A stretch of 37,151 bases of DNA, from contig JAFTKI010000015.1 of assembly GCA_017453335.1 (NCBI GenBank), positions 1 to 37,151 of the forward strand, in the 5' to 3' direction. Each line of letters opens with the position of its first letter. Within the stretch, counting starts at the first letter, position 1. This stretch comes from Clostridia bacterium. Its GTDB lineage: Bacteria; Bacillota_A; Clostridia; Oscillospirales; CAG-272. The position numbers and the translations under genes were made by a program. Of the stretch, positions 23,406-33,978 are shown piece after piece. The notes beneath the pieces were generated by a model. It was not told the DNA's origin, made no database searches, and saw only the letters and a list, made by a program, of their open reading frames with translations.

Positions 23406-24092
23406 ATGATACAATTCGTTTTTTTGGATCTTGATGCTACTCTGTTGGATTTTTTGACCGCCGAGGCGGTTGCTCTGAAAAAGGTGCTTGACAGGGAAGG
23501 TATCGAATGCACCGACCGCATCGTTGCACGTTACAGCGAGATCAACGACTACCATTGGAAGCTGTTGGAGGCAGGCCGATTGACGCGCGATGAGGTGAAA
23601 TGCAAGCGTTTTCAGGTGTTCTTTGACGAAATGCGTGTCAAGACCGATGTGGAATCGGCGCGAAGATATTACGAGGAACAGATTGCGATCGGTCACTATT
23701 TCATGCCGGGCGCGGAGGCTTTGCTGGAGGCATTGGAGGGGAACTATCGCTTGTTCATCATGTCCAATGGCAGTATTTCCGCGCAAAAGGGACGCATCGC
23801 CAGCGCAAATATAGCTCACTATTTCGAAAAGATCTTTCTTTCCGAGGCGGTTGGATATCACAAGCCGCAAAAGGAGTTTTTTGATGCTTGCTTTGCCGAG
23901 ATCCCCGATTTTGATCCCGAGAAAGCCATTATTCTGGGCGATAGCCTGACCTCCGATATTCTCGGAGGTCAAAACGCCGGAATCAAGACCTGCTGGTTCA
24001 ATCCCTTGAACAAGCCGAGTAATCCCGCGATCATTCCCGATTATGAGATCAAGGCGCTTTCACAGTTCGTTCCGCTTTTACAATCGCTATAA
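23406..24092 (+). CDS. HAD hydrolase, YjjG-type nucleotidase-like phosphatase
   Basis: A 228-residue HAD-superfamily hydrolase. Motif I is FLDLDATLLDF (nucleophile and acid/base Asp pair), motif II is the serine in IMSNGS, motif III is the lysine in GYHKPQKEFF, and motif IV is GDSLTSDILGGQNAG. The helical cap between residues 15 and 85 and the overall pattern resemble YjjG/YfnB nucleotidases, which dephosphorylate (non-canonical) nucleoside 5'-monophosphates. The gene begins 11 bases after the dnaE stop with AAAGGA upstream, so co-expression with replication is likely; a house-cleaning role for nucleotides is plausible but inferred. Confidence 0.9.
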   Translation: MIQFVFLDLDATLLDFLTAEAVALKKVLDREGIECTDRIVARYSEINDYHWKLLEAGRLTRDEVKCKRFQVFFDEMRVKTDVESARRYYEEQIAIGHYFMPGAEALLEALEGNYRLFIMSNGSISAQKGRIASANIAHYFEKIFLSEAVGYHKPQKEFFDACFAEIPDFDPEKAIILGDSLTSDILGGQNAGIKTCWFNPLNKPSNPAIIPDYEIKALSQFVPLLQSL

Positions 24093-24117
24093 AACTACGG
24101 GTAAACGGAAGGTCACC

Positions 24118-25392
24118 ATGCACAACGATAATAACGTGATGTTAAAGGAAAAAGGAGTTTGCGGAATCGTTCCGAGATATGCGCATGATGCCGTTACGAT
24201 CAACGGTATACGCCTCTCCGATTATCGGATCGTTTATCCTGCACAGACGAGCGGCTTTGAGAAGACCGTGGCAGAGATGCTTTCGGCACGTATTTTTGAT
24301 CTGACCGAGGATTCCGTACCGTTCCTTGCAGATTGTGAGGCTACATCGGCTCATAAAATAATGTTGCATCAAGACCAATCGCTTGAGTGCGGAATGATCG
24401 TGCTTGAAGACGGTATCGAATTGTGCGGAAAGAGCGCATATCATTTGGGGATTGTTGCAAAGGAACTCTTGGATCGAATTGAGGATGTCATGATTCGCGG
24501 TGACGGCAAAATTGACGTGGCAGGGAAGACCGATGTTCCCGAAAAACGCAGTATTTCGCTGATGGCGTATAACTTTTACGGATTTCATGCGTATCAGTCC
24601 CGTATGGATAATATCTGCCGCGTGATCACCAAATATCTGCCCGATGTGCTGTCGATTCAAGAGCCCGATCTTGCGATGATGGAGCTGACGCACATCAATC
24701 TGGACGGGTACTACGAATATTACAATGGCAGACCCCGCCACGGAGAGGATGAAAACAATCTGCCCGCGGATGCAAAGGGTGCAAATTCGGTTGCTCCGAT
24801 TCTGTACAACAAGAAACGCTTCCATCTCTTATCTGCCGATACGCGATGGATGAGCGACACGCCCGAGGATCCTTCCAAGTATGAGAATTCGGTATATTAC
24901 CGTCATTACAGCTATGCGGTATTGGAGGATTTGTTTACCAAAGAACGTTTTGTTGCGGTCAACTTACACCTGCAAAGATCCGTAGCGGTGGAGCAGGTGA
25001 AGATTGTTCTGGAGCATTTGAACCGATGCTTCAACGATCTTCCGATATTCCTGATCGGTGACTTTAACAGCGAGATCGACAAGCCCGTTCTGGAAATGCT
25101 TTTGCAATCGGCAGGTTTTGCATCGACACATAACACCGCAAAGAAGATCCGTGACGGACACAACCGCATCGACTGGATCCTGTATACCAAGGATTGTGCC
25201 GAGGCAGACTTTTATCATTGCTGTACCGAAACCTACCCCGATCCCGACGATAAAAAGGGATATTATCACGGCAAAACGCCGTCCGACCATTTTGCGTACT
25301 ATGCGGAGATCACTGTGGATCATTCACGCAAGATTTTGCACGATTGGAGTGACACCTTACTCTGGGAGCCTGAACCGATTGAAGCTACATAA
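24118..25392 (+). CDS. Two-domain protein: carbohydrate-enzyme-like N-terminal domain plus endonuclease/exonuclease/phosphatase (EEP) domain
   Basis: 424 residues. The C-terminal ~280 residues carry the EEP metal and catalytic motifs: glutamate in LSIQEPDL (about residue 181), VNLHLQ (His), IGDFNSEID (Asp-x-Asn), RIDWILY and PSDHFAYY (Asp/His). The first ~130 residues, with VTINGIRLSDYRIVYPAQ and an LxxxIxxxTxDSVPFLAD pattern, resemble the N-terminal alpha/beta domain found in front of glycoside hydrolases and DUF4838-type proteins of Clostridia. No signal peptide is seen, so it is probably cytoplasmic. The ATG at 24118 has GGAAGGT just upstream; a longer frame would overlap the previous gene. 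EEP targets range from nucleic acids to phospholipids, so the substrate is open. Confidence 0.82.
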   Translation: MHNDNNVMLKEKGVCGIVPRYAHDAVTINGIRLSDYRIVYPAQTSGFEKTVAEMLSARIFDLTEDSVPFLADCEATSAHKIMLHQDQSLECGMIVLEDGIELCGKSAYHLGIVAKELLDRIEDVMIRGDGKIDVAGKTDVPEKRSISLMAYNFYGFHAYQSRMDNICRVITKYLPDVLSIQEPDLAMMELTHINLDGYYEYYNGRPRHGEDENNLPADAKGANSVAPILYNKKRFHLLSADTRWMSDTPEDPSKYENSVYYRHYSYAVLEDLFTKERFVAVNLHLQRSVAVEQVKIVLEHLNRCFNDLPIFLIGDFNSEIDKPVLEMLLQSAGFASTHNTAKKIRDGHNRIDWILYTKDCAEADFYHCCTETYPDPDDKKGYYHGKTPSDHFAYYAEITVDHSRKILHDWSDTLLWEPEPIEAT

Positions 25393-25435: not shown

Positions 25436-25471
25436 AATAAAAACAGCGCGAGCCGTTTCGACTCACGCAAC
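25436..25471 (-). ncRNA. Very short predicted minus-strand hairpin RNA or promoter-proximal terminator
   Basis: The predicted start for the minus-strand promoter (25506-25478) is near 25471. The next bases fold as GCGTGAGTCG-AAA-CGGCTCGCGC (10 bp including two G-U wobbles) followed by TGTTTTTATT. On the plus strand the wobbles become C-A mismatches, so the hairpin belongs to the minus-strand RNA. The product would be about 35 nt, with no coding content. Confidence 0.5.
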
Positions 25472-25477
25472 ATATCT

Positions 25478-25506
25478 ATTATAACACGTTTTTTTGGCTT
25501 TGTCAA
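25478..25506 (-). promoter_or_regulatory. Perfect-consensus minus-strand promoter with no gene behind it
   Basis: TTGACA (25506-25501), 17 bases, TATAAT (25483-25478). It faces away from the RNA gene at 25616 and runs directly into the hairpin at 25468-25436 and then against the end of the EEP gene. Confidence 0.85.
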
Positions 25507-25580
25507 CGAGAAAATAACAATAATAACCAATTTCTATTTTTTATACAAAAAATAATTGTGAGGTTTTTACAAATCGCCTA

Positions 25581-25609
25581 TTGAAATACAGCAAAAAATG
25601 TGCTATACT
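25581..25609 (+). promoter_or_regulatory. Promoter of the orphan structured RNA
   Basis: TTGAAA at 25581-25586, 17 bases, TATACT at 25604-25609. Predicted start about 25616. Confidence 0.8.
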
Positions 25610-25615
25610 ATAGGC

Positions 25616-26040
25616 GTAGAGGAAAGGAGGTACAAGCCGATGTACAAATAGAATCGGGAACTTGATACAAGGGTCGGGAGAGAAGAATTAAGAAGATTTG
25701 AATCTGGAGCGAGTAAAGAGGAAGACTCGATAAAGGAGTCTTGGCAGGAGAAAACGGAGAGATCGAAAAAAGGAGAAAAACATTCAAATCGATTGGAGAT
25801 AGATAAAATCCCTTGTAAAAAGATTCCCACGGAATTCGCCTTTTGAACCGAAGCAAACAAACAACAGCAAAGTGAACTCCCGTTGGAGAAAAAGAAGATT
25901 GGTGTTAGAAGTGAGTGGCAAGAGGACAAAAGGTAGACAATAGAAAGAGAGGATAAACAAATGATGTTAGATACTAAGAGTGAACAGAAGTGACCCTTGA
26001 TCGCGGGCTTACAACCGAGATCAAGGGTCATTTCTATTTT
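25616..26040 (+). ncRNA. Candidate large structured non-coding RNA of unknown class (about 425 nt, purine-rich)
   Basis: A transcription unit with promoter and terminator but no intact reading frame. Segments far apart are complementary in nested order: GAAT-C-GGGA (25651-25659) with TCCC then ATTC (25825-25837); TACAAGGG (25666-25673) with CCCTTGTA (25810-25817); GATTTGAAT (25695-25703) with ATTCAAATC (25782-25790). Inside the innermost is AAGACTC/GAGTCTT (25722-25742). A small hairpin GTACA/TGTAC (about 25630-25645) precedes them. CGGGAG (25675-25680) can pair with CTCCCG (25877-25882), crossing the nested helices as a pseudoknot. The 3' half is A/G-rich with a hairpin CTCC/GGAG. Length and layout recall ornate RNAs (raiA, ROOL, OLE, GOLLD), but I cannot assign one; RNase P, tmRNA and 6S signatures are absent. 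Confidence 0.6.
25991..26040 (+). terminator. Terminator of the structured RNA
   Basis: TGACCCTTGATC (25991-26002) pairs perfectly with GATCAAGGGTCA (26019-26030), followed by TTTCTATTTT. Confidence 0.85.
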
Positions 26041-26048
26041 CGTTATGG

Positions 26049-26077
26049 AGCCGTTCAAGCACGGCTTTTTCTTTTTG
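26049..26077 (+). terminator. Second, back-up terminator
   Basis: AGCCGT (26049-26054) and ACGGCT (26061-26066) form a hairpin followed by TTTTCTTTTTG on the plus strand. It shields the convergent ATPase gene, which ends at 26078. Confidence 0.75.
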
Positions 26078-28759
26078 TCAAAACCCGTTTTTCTTTCCTC
26101 TGAGGCGCCAAAGAGCCTTGCGGATGATCTCGAAGGGGAAGACCGAAAGCGATAACAGAAGAGTGACGACCAACTCCTTGACCAGCAAGGGGGCGGTTCT
26201 GAGCACACTGCCGCCGAGATAAACGAAGCCGATCTGAATCACGAGGATTGCGAGCATGATCAAAAGAAAAATGCGGTTTTTGGCAAGCCCCGAGAGCAGA
26301 TTGAGGCGGTCTGTCCTTGCGTTGAAGCAGTTGAATACCGAGGAGAAAATAAACAGCGCGAAAAATGCGGTCAGCAGATACAGGTGTTGCTCGTGCGGAC
26401 GGAAAACAGCGCGGATCGTGGGCGAGAACAGAAAATACAGACACAGCGCAACGGTAAATCCGCCGAGAAGCACGATCTGGTTGACCATGTAGCGGTTCAA
26501 GATCGGTTCATCACGCCGCTTTGGTGACTCCTTCATGTAGTCGTTGCGCGGTGGCTCTCCCGCAAAAGCCAAGCCCCCAAGCGTATCCATGATGATATTG
26601 ATCCACAGCATTTGCACCACGGTCACAGGTGAATCGATCCCCAAAAAGGGGCAGAGCATGGTAACCGCAACCGCGCAGAAATTCATAGTCAATTGCAAGG
26701 TGATAAACTTTCGGATGCTTTTGAAGATGGTGCGTCCGTAAAGCACCGCACGAACGATCGATGCCAGATTGTTGTCCATGATCAGAATATCGCCCGCATC
26801 CTTGGCAACCTGCGTGCCGCTTCCCATGGAAAATCCAATATCAGCGCGGCGCAAGGCGGGAGCATCATTGATGCCGTCACCCGTCATGCCGGTTACCATT
26901 CCAAGCTCCTGCGACAGCCGTACAAGACGGCTTTTGTCGGTTGGGAGTGCGCGGGCGATCACAGCGATGTGCGGAAGCCTTTCGCGGATCTCGGCATCCG
27001 TCATGCGGGAAAGCTCGGTTCCCGTCAGAATCAGATTTTGGTGACGGTTCAGGATGCCGCACTGCTTTGCGATGGTTTCGGCGGTTTGCGGATTGTCGCC
27101 CGTCATCATCACCACTTGAACGCCCGCATCCTGCAGGGTTGCCACCGAGCTTGCCGCCTCACGGCGCACAGGATCGGTCAGACATACGGCGCCGAGAAAG
27201 GACATGGGAGCAAGCTTATCCCGATCCAGCTCGCGTGCCGAAAGAGAGCCCTTCAGAACTGCTACCGTCAACACACGCGCTCCCGTTGCGGCGATTCGCC
27301 GAAGCTCCTTTTCTGTTTTGCTTTTGGAAAAGGGAAGCGGAGAAGCGTTTTCCCCCACCGCATCAACGATATGCCCAAGCAGCTTTTCGGGTGCGCCCAT
27401 GACCAAGGTCAGCGGTTCTTTCCCCGAAAGGCTGACCGCGGAATATTTTCGTGCGCTGTCAAAGGGCAGGCGAGAGGTCACACGGTATTCTTTTTCGATC
27501 GGCAGGTGCAAAATACTTTCCAACAAAGCGCGCTCGGTGGCACTTCCGCCAAGAACACACGGTGTTCCGTCCTGTCCCACACCCTCGGTGGCGGCGTTGT
27601 TGAAGCGAAAGATCAAGGAAAACAGACAGGCACGTCTTGGGTTATTGGATAAAAACCGTTCAAACGGATGTAGCGTACCGTCTGCGGCAAGGCAGGCGGT
27701 CAGCTTCATTTTTCCTTCGGTCAGCGTTCCTGTTTTGTCGGTGAACAGAATATTCATGCTGCCTGCTGCTTCCACTCCAACGGCTTTGCGCACCAACACA
27801 CGGTCGCGCAGCATTTTGCGGATGTTGGAGGAAAGCACTACGGCAATCATCATGGGAAGCCCCTCGGGAACGGCAACCACCAGAACGGTCAAGGCAAGCG
27901 TGAAGGCATGGAAGAGATGCTCCAACAGGTACGGAATATTCCGTATTTTGAGCGCGACTACCGCCCATTGCATCCCGCTGTCCAGCACAAATACATTGAA
28001 AAGATAGGCAAACGCGACCAGCGCGGCGGCAAGATAGCCCAATCGGCTGATCTGACGCGCCAGCTTTTCAAGACGAATTTTCAAAGGGCTTTTTCGAGTG
28101 TCTTGCTGGATCTCACGCGAGATCTGACCGAGAAAGGTACGGTCACCAACCGCCGCGACCTCCATCTCACCGCCGCCTGCCGTAACGGTACAGCCGCGAA
28201 ACAGTGCCGACGGTGCGTTCGGCTCCAGAGAAGAGTCGCTTGTAGCTTGCTTTTTGACCTCTCGGTTTTCGCCTGTCATGCAGGATTGATCGGTCTTCAG
28301 CTCCCCTGTACGCAACAGCCCGTCGGCAGGGATTTGCTCCCCCGCATCCAGGAGGATCACATCTCCCACAACGACCTCGGAGATCGGGATCTCACGGATA
28401 ACGCCCGATCGCCGTACCCGACAAACACCCTTGTCATTTTCCTCGGAAAGCGCCTCAAAGGCGCGCGCCGAGCCGTATTCCGAAAGGGTGGAGATCAGCG
28501 TGGCAAGAAAGACCGCCACCCCGATCCCCAGCGTTTCGATCAGATTGCCGCCCTTTGAAAGCAGGATCAGATTGATGATCAGCGCCGCCAACAGGATACG
28601 GATCACGGGATCGTTCAGGTTTGCAAAAAAACGCCGCAAGAACCCTTTCCCGCGTGCTTTTGTTAAAATATTTGCGCCGTGTGCCGCGCGCGATGCACGT
28701 ACCTCTTCATCGCACAGCCCCATTTTTTTTCGTTGGTCTTTTGTTTGATAGTCTTTCAT
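26078..28759 (-). CDS. Calcium-type P-type ATPase (P2A/P2B)
   Basis: Membrane ion pump of 893 residues. After a cytoplasmic N-terminus, helix pair M1-M2 (about 45-95), the actuator domain (TGE loop in SCMTGENREVKKQ), and M3-M4 with VVAVPEGLPMMIAVVLSSN, whose PEGLP marks calcium or manganese pumps. The phosphorylated aspartate is Asp341 in DKTGTLTEGKMK; the nucleotide domain ends with MVTGMTGDGINDAPALRRAD. Six C-terminal helices complete the ten expected. The substrate is most likely Ca2+, exported from the cell. The ATG at 28759 has GGAGG eight bases upstream; an extension 26 codons longer lacks a site. No partner gene is near; it is flanked by the orphan RNA and a terminator. Confidence 0.93.
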   Translation of the reverse strand: MKDYQTKDQRKKMGLCDEEVRASRAAHGANILTKARGKGFLRRFFANLNDPVIRILLAALIINLILLSKGGNLIETLGIGVAVFLATLISTLSEYGSARAFEALSEENDKGVCRVRRSGVIREIPISEVVVGDVILLDAGEQIPADGLLRTGELKTDQSCMTGENREVKKQATSDSSLEPNAPSALFRGCTVTAGGGEMEVAAVGDRTFLGQISREIQQDTRKSPLKIRLEKLARQISRLGYLAAALVAFAYLFNVFVLDSGMQWAVVALKIRNIPYLLEHLFHAFTLALTVLVVAVPEGLPMMIAVVLSSNIRKMLRDRVLVRKAVGVEAAGSMNILFTDKTGTLTEGKMKLTACLAADGTLHPFERFLSNNPRRACLFSLIFRFNNAATEGVGQDGTPCVLGGSATERALLESILHLPIEKEYRVTSRLPFDSARKYSAVSLSGKEPLTLVMGAPEKLLGHIVDAVGENASPLPFSKSKTEKELRRIAATGARVLTVAVLKGSLSARELDRDKLAPMSFLGAVCLTDPVRREAASSVATLQDAGVQVVMMTGDNPQTAETIAKQCGILNRHQNLILTGTELSRMTDAEIRERLPHIAVIARALPTDKSRLVRLSQELGMVTGMTGDGINDAPALRRADIGFSMGSGTQVAKDAGDILIMDNNLASIVRAVLYGRTIFKSIRKFITLQLTMNFCAVAVTMLCPFLGIDSPVTVVQMLWINIIMDTLGGLAFAGEPPRNDYMKESPKRRDEPILNRYMVNQIVLLGGFTVALCLYFLFSPTIRAVFRPHEQHLYLLTAFFALFIFSSVFNCFNARTDRLNLLSGLAKNRIFLLIMLAILVIQIGFVYLGGSVLRTAPLLVKELVVTLLLSLSVFPFEIIRKALWRLRGKKNGF

Positions 28760-28905
28760 TCTTTCCCTCCGTTCTGTTTCTTTTTCTACTTTATGACAGG
28801 GAAGGGAAAGATATGTTTGTTTGAAGAAGGAACTCATAGGGATTTACGAATGATGCACAATTCTCAAGCTTTTTGAAATAATAAACAAAAAGTATGTTAA
28901 GAAAC

Positions 28906-33663: not shown

Positions 33664-33978
33664 AACCTCGAACCGCAAAACGAGGCCATACCAGCCGGGG
33701 ACATAGCGGAGCCCTATACCTGAAATCCGCTACAGCAGGGGTGGATCCCCTTTTTGAGGGACGATCTTTTACGAATTGAGTCGTACCCTCTGTGTTGAAG
33801 AATGGGTCTTGCGCAATTGGGAATTGTGAACCAGGTCAGGTGGGGGACCAAGCAGCCTTAAGCAGTCTACCCAATGTGCCGCAAGAGTGCCTGTTCCGAG
33901 CAGAGTGTACGAAGATCGCGTGGAAGTGACTTTCGATTCAAGGGTGTATGGTCTTGTTTTGCGGTTCGGGGTTGTTTT
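33664..33978 (+). ncRNA. ffs: Signal recognition particle RNA, large (Firmicutes) type
   Basis: The 5' segment CCTCGAACCGCAAAACGAGG and following bases (33666-33690) pair with 33947-33971 over about 25 bp with few interruptions, closing the molecule. The apical domain IV is diagnostic: GGTCAGGT-GGGGGACC-AAGCAGCC (about 33835-33860), the SRP loop with the symmetric AGG/AGCAG internal loop, where Ffh binds. The length of about 310 nt indicates that an Alu-like domain is present, as in Bacillus and Clostridia, somewhat longer than the 270-nt Bacillus form. Located before dnaX, the usual place in Firmicutes (ffs/scr-dnaX-ybaB-recR). The U-run after the helix (TTGTTTTT) acts as terminator. Confidence 0.93.

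Follow-up and report, generated by a model that had tools for sequence, protein, structure and literature searches.

The DNA studied here is a stretch of 37,151 nt from contig JAFTKI010000015.1 of a Clostridia bacterium, referred to as the window, and the element at positions 25616-26040 (plus strand) raises the question of what kind of RNA is encoded between its two protein-gene neighbors. Upstream lies an endonuclease/exonuclease/phosphatase-like ORF (24043-25392, plus strand) and downstream a convergent P-type-ATPase-like ORF (26078-28837, minus strand), both names having been read from the translations. An earlier description made from the sequence alone (the sequence-only reading) had called the element an orphan structured RNA without a usable reading frame. 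Comparison among genomes supports its membership in an RNA family of Oscillospiraceae and their relatives, the members of which appear to be stand-alone units with constant and translatable ends and a locus-specific middle. The sequence-only reading missed both the stronger conservation of the ends than of the middle and a divergent promoter upstream.

General Features of the Element

The 124 elements that were parsed have a common design, consisting of one to four 5' units of a Shine-Dalgarno (SD) sequence and a short ORF, a structured middle, an interrupted SD followed by a second ORF (ORF2), and a covarying terminator. The predicted transcript length of the family is about 236-554 nt with a median of 385 nt, as calculated from -10 boxes picked in 98 elements. 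Features of the window are as follows, with the basis of each assignment in parentheses.

25438-25471, minus strand: predicted divergent tiny RNA of about 34 nt (positions of its promoter and terminator)
25446-25468, minus strand: terminator of the divergent tiny RNA, a 10-pair stem and then TGTTTTTATT (terminator scan)
25478-25506, minus strand: divergent promoter TTGACA-N17-TATAAT, -10 box preceded by TG, 12/12 consensus (promoter scan)
25529-25586, plus strand: conserved AT-rich spacer between both promoters, operator-like by eye (consensus of 105 upstream regions)
25581-25609, plus strand: main-RNA promoter TTGAAA-N17-TATACT, -10 box preceded by TG (promoter scan)
25620-25630, plus strand: long SD AGGAAAGGAGG of the 5' unit (sequence, conserved in the family)
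25640-25651, plus strand: 5' mini-ORF ATGTACAAATAG, ATG TAC AAA TAG, M-Y-K-stop (stop-position statistics of family sites)
25652-25942, plus strand: structured middle (kept in the G001 orthologue, elsewhere often unrelated between same-genome paralogues)
25666-25673 with 25810-25817, plus strand: helix TACAAGGG / CCCTTGTA (exact; altered and still pairable in L001)
25695-25703 with 25782-25790, plus strand: helix GATTTGAAT / ATTCAAATC (exact; kept in L001)
25722-25742, plus strand: 7-bp hairpin AAGACTC/GAGTCTT (exact; two double changes in L001)
25838-25845 with 25927-25934, plus strand: long-range helix GCCUUUUG / CAAAAGGU (89.4% of cells paired in alignment A2, both sides changed in 4 of 8 pairs)
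25877-25888, plus strand: hairpin CTCC-CGTT-GGAG, the local form of the UUCUCNUUAGAGAA hairpin (alignment A2: 88.9% of cells paired; register shifted in the window)
25943-25952, plus strand: interrupted SD of ORF2, GAAAG[A]GAGG (form conserved in the family)
25964-25993, plus strand: ORF2, MLDTKSEQK-stop, its stop codon in the 5' arm of the terminator stem (stop conservation)
25987-26034, plus strand: terminator hairpin GAAGTGACCCTTGATC / GATCAAGGGTCATTTC (all 15 consensus pairs with double changes, 56 homologues)

The folding z of the full RNA in the window is -4.4. A discrete structured RNA unit of this size with a promoter and a terminator of its own, as predicted by the sequence-only reading, is supported. 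Judged by its sequence, the element carries the promoter and terminator of its own by which a dual-function small RNA is recognized as a stand-alone unit. A 201-codon frame on the minus strand (25603-26208) was rejected as a gene; the homologue's minus strand has no frame open for more than 95 codons. In the window, which was the only sequence scanned with ARAGORN, no tmRNA (tRNA-like domain plus tag ORF) was found. The bacterial large SRP RNA was found elsewhere in the window, at 33686-33951 (plus strand, 162 bits).

Search of Known RNA Families and Distribution

Apart from this SRP RNA, nothing in the window matched Rfam 15 at gathering score and nothing was found on the element; by that test it is therefore none of raiA, ROOL, OLE, and GOLLD, nor 6S RNA or a T-box. 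The sequence-only reading had taken it either for a known class unnameable by eye or for an undescribed one. For 20 homologous loci, the same search gave nothing on the elements, the matches obtained being eight tRNAs and one T-box, which lies on the minus strand at L104:810-1058 and does not overlap the element of that locus. Sub-threshold matches were far below their cut-offs, e.g., Pox_AX_element on the minus strand with 34.6 bits against 60, and have been taken as chance. No description of the element was found in the literature searched, including the consulted portions of PMC8040213 and PMC11109978, and it may be an unnamed entry among the 3161 candidates in the supplement of PMC8040213. 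The family is thus apparently undescribed and absent from Rfam.

The nearest relative compared is an Oscillospiraceae MAG, SIG676 (genome G001, locus L001), whose DnaE is 85% identical to that of the window and which carries the RNA at the same place with 75% identity over 436 aligned positions. When 295 genomes of the same order were searched at the DNA level with the G001 element, 93 gave a match at E <= 0.1, many of them weak and taken as chance hits to the purine-rich middle; strong matches beyond G001 covered the 3' end of the query only. A strict pattern of the 3' module was found in 40 of 394 order genomes at 48 places (one being a long ORF, L153), and a control with the pattern read backward gave one place. 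Covariance model R1 detected the element in 58 of the 196 host-family genomes, so that it is no orphan; in 24 of 391 genomes of the class, four of them weak (E 1e-4 to 1e-3); and in one of 299 genomes of the phylum, this being G001 itself. These three runs used stricter filters, by which weak matches are lost, and the model (alignment A1) was built from 56 of 58 sequences, with L247 and L246 omitted and the second L203 copy skipped earlier.

The 124 distinct elements, the window included, come from 107 genomes or records with up to four per genome; three matches of an earlier pass and L279 and L274, which have GTG starts, were left unparsed. Carriers include a species recorded from a human source and a sheep-colon genome (L003/G003). 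A named carrier is Vescimonas fastidiosa MM35 (NZ_AP023416.1), in which the element is unannotated between a TetR-family gene and spoVAC. In L298/L309 (G773:C45), three copies stand in tandem about 590 nt apart. A diverged second copy is present at L203:4616 (plus strand), 1.6 kb downstream of the first, with MIEPNNEER behind AGAACAGGAGG and a similar start of the terminator.

A phage or plasmid origin was also considered and rejected: a distant blastn search gave chance-level matches in four Sulfolobus-virus records, and the sole record with a true homologue was the plasmid-labelled 861-kb replicon of Vescimonas fastidiosa. The strict pattern matched 23 stretches in IMG/VR, none of which reads as the element, their frames being open over the approximately 50 codons examined.

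Promoters and Terminator

The promoter that the sequence-only reading had assigned to the RNA is present at 25581-25609. Since the scan which reports it found 2 promoter-like sites in the region and 1.5 are expected by chance, conservation rather than the match itself is the evidence for it. A -10 box with at least 4/6 consensus letters was picked, without a control, in 98 elements, its median distance to the ATG being 28 nt. For the divergent promoter, a reverse-strand site scoring at least 11 of 13 occurs upstream of 93 of 105 elements and in 2 of 105 mononucleotide shuffles, and a terminator lies within 90 nt of it in 65 of the 98 elements whose reverse promoter scores at least 9. From this promoter and the terminator facing it, an RNA of about 34 nt is predicted. 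An arrangement like this divergent promoter and tiny RNA sits upstream of most family members, and the intergenic region holding the spacer is 78% identical between the window and L001 over 129 nt.

The terminator named by the sequence-only reading was confirmed as a long stem (25987-26002 with 26019-26034) that covaries in the family. With a 16-nt loop in the window, it is beyond the limits of the terminator scan and therefore missing from its results. Many terminator loops in the family (L223, L232, L219, L227, and others) resemble GGGTGAAAGACAT or TGTAAAGAAACA, a likeness exceeding what a terminator needs.

Short ORFs at Both Ends

Both ends have a short ORF behind a strong SD, ATGTACAAATAG at the 5' end and MLDTKSEQK-stop at the 3' end, and both are conserved, which contradicts the statement that no usable reading frame exists. 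The 5' sites were collected with the expression GG-N3-5-[CTA]CC-[AGC]-ATG at up to 460 nt upstream of ORF2, and it matched 116 sites in 98 of the 124 elements. The expression was shaped on the elements themselves with ORF length alone left free, and in these sites, not chosen by ORF length, a stop stands at codon 4 in 94 and at codon 3 in 13, i.e., in 107 of 116, whereas the expression matched 70 sites in flanking DNA and 4 of these stop by codon 4. The commonest of these ORFs are ATG TAC AAG TAA and ATG TAC AGG TAA. A looser expression requiring a short ORF found a unit in 112 of 124 elements, some of the matched units being weak and probably due to chance, and none in the other 12. A single unit is present in 86 elements and, by our own reading, tandem arrays of two to four units, spaced about 45-110 nt, in 18. 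This statistic strongly favors selection on, and translation of, two- or three-codon ORFs at the 5' end.

Pairing of the SDs to the 16S rRNA tail was calculated as a median of -16.4 kcal/mol for the 5' unit (best unit, 112 elements) and -13.0 kcal/mol for ORF2 (124 elements), against -10.2 kcal/mol when the best start within the initial quarter of each long flanking ORF (n = 286) was taken, with 22 nt having been used for the 5' units and 25 nt for the gene controls. The tail, GGATCACCTCCTTTCT, was taken from one genome (L307; G334), this being the one real tail among 30 genomes asked, and a second match, L306, is coding by our own reading. The SD of ORF2 is an extended complement of this tail broken by one base: the form GAAAG[N]GAGG is found in 112 of 124 elements, GAAA[N]GGAGG in 4, other forms in 8, and the uninterrupted GAAAGGAGG in none.

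ORF2 reads MLD[I/T/N]K... in most elements. An in-frame stop giving 7-10 codons exists in 121 of 124 elements (9 codons in 106, 10 in 10, 8 in 4, and 7 in 1), so that the differences are by whole codons, and the stop has been lost in three (L225, L247, and one L215 copy). The stop position has TGA in 78, TAA in 35, TAG in 8, and TGG in 1; this under-use of TGG inside a covarying stem has a Fisher p of 0.001, which kinship inflates. Codon use in the 106 nine-codon ORF2s is nearly uniform, with GAT for Asp in 105, TTA for Leu in 102, and AAG for the first Lys in 95. Residues 4 and 6-9 vary, and codons 2, 3, and 5 rarely use synonyms. Because the search seeds held the same ORF2 letters, this codon count is inflated and represents an upper bound; the seeds and models contain GAGG, ATGTTAGATA, and AAG, which accounts for part of the conservation seen in these letters. 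The near-frozen synonymous sites suggest that the RNA sequence is constrained too. A search for consistent pairing between the ORF2 core and other parts of the RNA gave no more than shuffled sequence does. Overall, the comparative evidence strongly favors translation of ORF2.

The TTAGATAC of the ORF2 core (25967-25975) is part of a GGATTAGATACCC stretch in the 16S rRNA gene of L307, which we take to be the 790 loop; this likeness was noted post hoc and is possibly due to chance. ORF2 begins MLD[I/T/N]K as seryl-tRNA synthetase does, and among 26 genomes in which serS was sought, 25 had a match above the cut-off and all 24 starts shown read MLDIK or MLDIR. Mimicry of this enzyme by ORF2 was rejected, as the ribosome-binding site and codon choice of serS are, by eye, unlike those of the module.

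Structured Middle

The sequence-only reading had proposed three nested helices with a hairpin inside, of which the second, the third, and the hairpin are exact, whereas the first (25651-25659) is interrupted and falls outside the exact helices. By our own reading, TACAAGGG/CCCTTGTA becomes TACGAAGGC/GCCTTTGTA with one G-U in L001, and the counterpart of the hairpin in this syntenic homologue is GAGATTC/GAATCTC. The claim of pairing beyond chance holds for the window, where the nested chain of exact helices of at least 7 bp amounts to 24 bp against 7.1 +/- 4.7 and is reached by 0 of 200 dinucleotide shuffles, but not for L001, where the same test gives 14 bp and is equalled by 18.5% of shuffles. 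The folding z of the middle alone is modest (-2.0 in the window, -0.4 in the homologue, and a median of -1.9 in the family); since upstream control segments hold terminators and fold better (median -2.6 against -1.9), this test is uninformative for structure of the middle.

In alignment A2, composed of 27 of the 30 sequences of the subfamily nearest the window (L208, L081, and L266 were left out), the long-range helix and the UUCUCNUUAGAGAA hairpin are kept: 89% of their cells are paired and 7 of 13 pairs have double changes, against 38-58% of cells in slid controls, the 13 pairs having been drawn after viewing the alignment and the shuffle measure "further pair types" being not unusual (56/500). 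RNAalifold unaided gave 5 pairs on A2. A crossing pair (25675-25680 with 25877-25882), for which a pseudoknot had been suggested, is unsupported: it has no visible partner in L001 and competes with the CTCC-CGTT-GGAG hairpin. A different pseudoknot appears in other members. The motif ACAC-G[G/A]CG-GUGU...ACG[C/U] occurs in 39 of 124 elements, and its loop base and downstream base are G with C in 26 and A with T in 8, with 5 exceptions, a pattern expected of an H-type pseudoknot; among the motif matches listed, the window is absent.

Among ten scored pairs of same-genome paralogues, seven have similar ends and an unrelated middle: the 5' ends are 0.81-0.93 and the 3' ends 0.64-0.88 identical, and the middle is at most 0.11 above shuffled identity or below it. 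The middle is related in the other three, and two copies in G265, outside the scored pairs, are alike across 385 nt. The scored pairs came from 8 of 12 multi-copy genomes (the G773b pair gave no unit, and G114, G271, G265, and G207 were left out). For the orthologous pair of the window and G001, the middle identity is 0.70. A match covering at least 60% was found for 20 of 105 middles, and 17 of those matches are in another genome. No long antisense complementarity to the middle of the G001 RNA was found in the G001 genome, the ten scored candidates being the middle itself and nine matches of 14-19 nt with E of at least 1.6, in a search of this one genome to which short seeds are invisible.

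Neighboring Genes

Crude ORF calling (at least 90 codons) at the first 59 elements gave a downstream ORF in 55 cases, 29 of them on the same strand and 26 on the opposite one. The 113 neighbor proteins gave ten similarity clusters, seven of which are within one locus or between the window and G001; the remaining three each link two unrelated loci, upstream with upstream twice and downstream with upstream once, and no downstream protein family recurs between unrelated loci. Since the neighbors are random, the RNA should act in trans.

Possible Function

We consider that the element belongs to a family of trans-acting RNAs, in which ribosomes on mini-ORFs cap both ends and the middle is the effector, and we give this reading an even chance of being right. 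Transcription would begin a few nucleotides before an SD far stronger than those of ordinary genes; a first ribosome would initiate there, read two or three codons, and stop within the first 45 nt or so. A second ribosome would initiate at the interrupted SD beside the terminator, read 7-10 codons, and stop at the base of the hairpin. We infer that ribosomes cycling on these ORFs at both ends stabilize the RNA: the short-cycling ribosomes would serve as caps, keeping RNase J-type exonucleases away from the 5' end and protecting the 3' end, and the ribosome-free middle between the capped ends would stay stable and act as an effector that differs among paralogues. The divergent near-consensus promoter and the conserved spacer would set expression of the element. 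A further reading, which we put forward tentatively and regard as less likely than not, is that the family represents a natural RNA chassis. This would be a self-contained cassette spanning about 600 bp (terminator, divergent promoter and tiny RNA, spacer, promoter, constant ends, and terminator) with exchangeable effector middles, which has multiplied in Oscillospiraceae-related genomes, each copy giving a different ribosome-protected RNA.

Several observations could also be read otherwise. The SD energies stronger than those of ordinary genes, the arrays of up to four 5' units per element, and the three tandem or four dispersed gene copies reached in a genome are what would be expected if strong SDs and idle translation of mini-ORFs titrated 30S subunits or ribosomes and so damped global initiation in some condition; tandem units fit such a sponge as well as they fit caps. 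However, the single 5' unit of most elements leaves few sites per molecule, which fits the cap better, and a pure sponge would need neither the stop at codon 4 nor a locus-specific middle, so that we regard this sponge as unlikely. Of the coding units, ORF2 is conserved best, and it varies in length by whole codons, as would be expected if the product were a peptide of 7-10 residues (MLD[I/T/N]K...) with a signal or effector role, expressed behind a long regulated leader with upstream mini-ORFs. Against this stand the varying residues 4 and 6-9 beside codons 2, 3, and 5 that are nearly without synonyms (subject to the seed caveat above), a length too short for a signal sequence, and a structured middle kept between orthologues that a peptide gene would not need; a peptide product therefore seems to us improbable.

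The helices and the pseudoknot with matching base changes would suit a purely non-coding large structured RNA like OLE or ROOL, in which purine-rich binding sites give rise to the mini-ORFs incidentally, but the ORF statistics at both ends speak against it and we give it little credence. An ORF whose stop lies inside a terminator stem, as that of ORF2 does, is similar to the anatomy of an attenuator; a leader of the downstream gene with ORF2 as its leader peptide over the terminator is nevertheless scarcely believable, as the gene downstream is oppositely oriented in 26 of 55 elements and also in the window, and no downstream family is recurrent. The reading with ribosome-capped ends and an effector middle, which we prefer, leaves the frozen synonymous sites of ORF2 unexplained. 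Also speaking against it are the three elements that have lost the ORF2 stop, the 12 in which no 5' unit was found, the related middles of three scored paralogue pairs and of the two G265 copies, and the modest folding of the middle.

If this preferred reading is true, Rfam lacks an RNA family of anaerobes with strongly selected ORFs of two or three codons. It would then become testable whether bacteria cap regulatory RNAs with idle ribosomes and why an SD keeps a conserved interruption of one nucleotide, and the function of minimal ORFs could be studied in a defined system.

Comparison with Known Systems

To our knowledge, no known RNA class is defined by constant ribosome-engaging ends around exchangeable middles, although each ingredient of the element has a precedent. 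RNAIII and SR1 are dual-function small RNAs, i.e., structured regulatory RNAs of a few hundred nucleotides which also encode a short peptide, and they resemble the element in size, structure, and the probable coding of a short peptide; the element differs in that both of its ends carry ORFs of 2-10 codons, its 5' units are repeated, and its middle is variable. The large RNAs raiA, ROOL, OLE, and GOLLD are alike in scale, in Firmicutes hosts, and in being stand-alone units, whereas the element is defined by mini-ORFs and constant ends and has no Rfam match. RNAs of the CsrB/RsmZ type are sponges titrating CsrA, and the likeness is that the element contains GGA and may titrate a binder. A CsrA sponge is disfavored, CsrA having been found in 3 of 196 family genomes and in none of the 58 with the element, some of which may be incomplete, and titration of CsrA in these hosts is unlikely.

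The closest precedent for the proposed caps is at the 5' end of mRNAs, where strong SDs, stalled ribosomes, and the ribosome-binding site of a mini-ORF are recorded as RNA stabilizers in the consulted portion of PMC3997798. The examples given there (STAB-SD, the aprE and hbs leaders, and the mini-ORF ribosome-binding site in T3SS mRNA) share with the element a strong 5' SD or mini-ORF at which a bound ribosome protects the downstream RNA. In contrast to these cis leaders of protein genes, the RNA described here would be a stand-alone unit with SD-ORFs at both ends and no protein gene.
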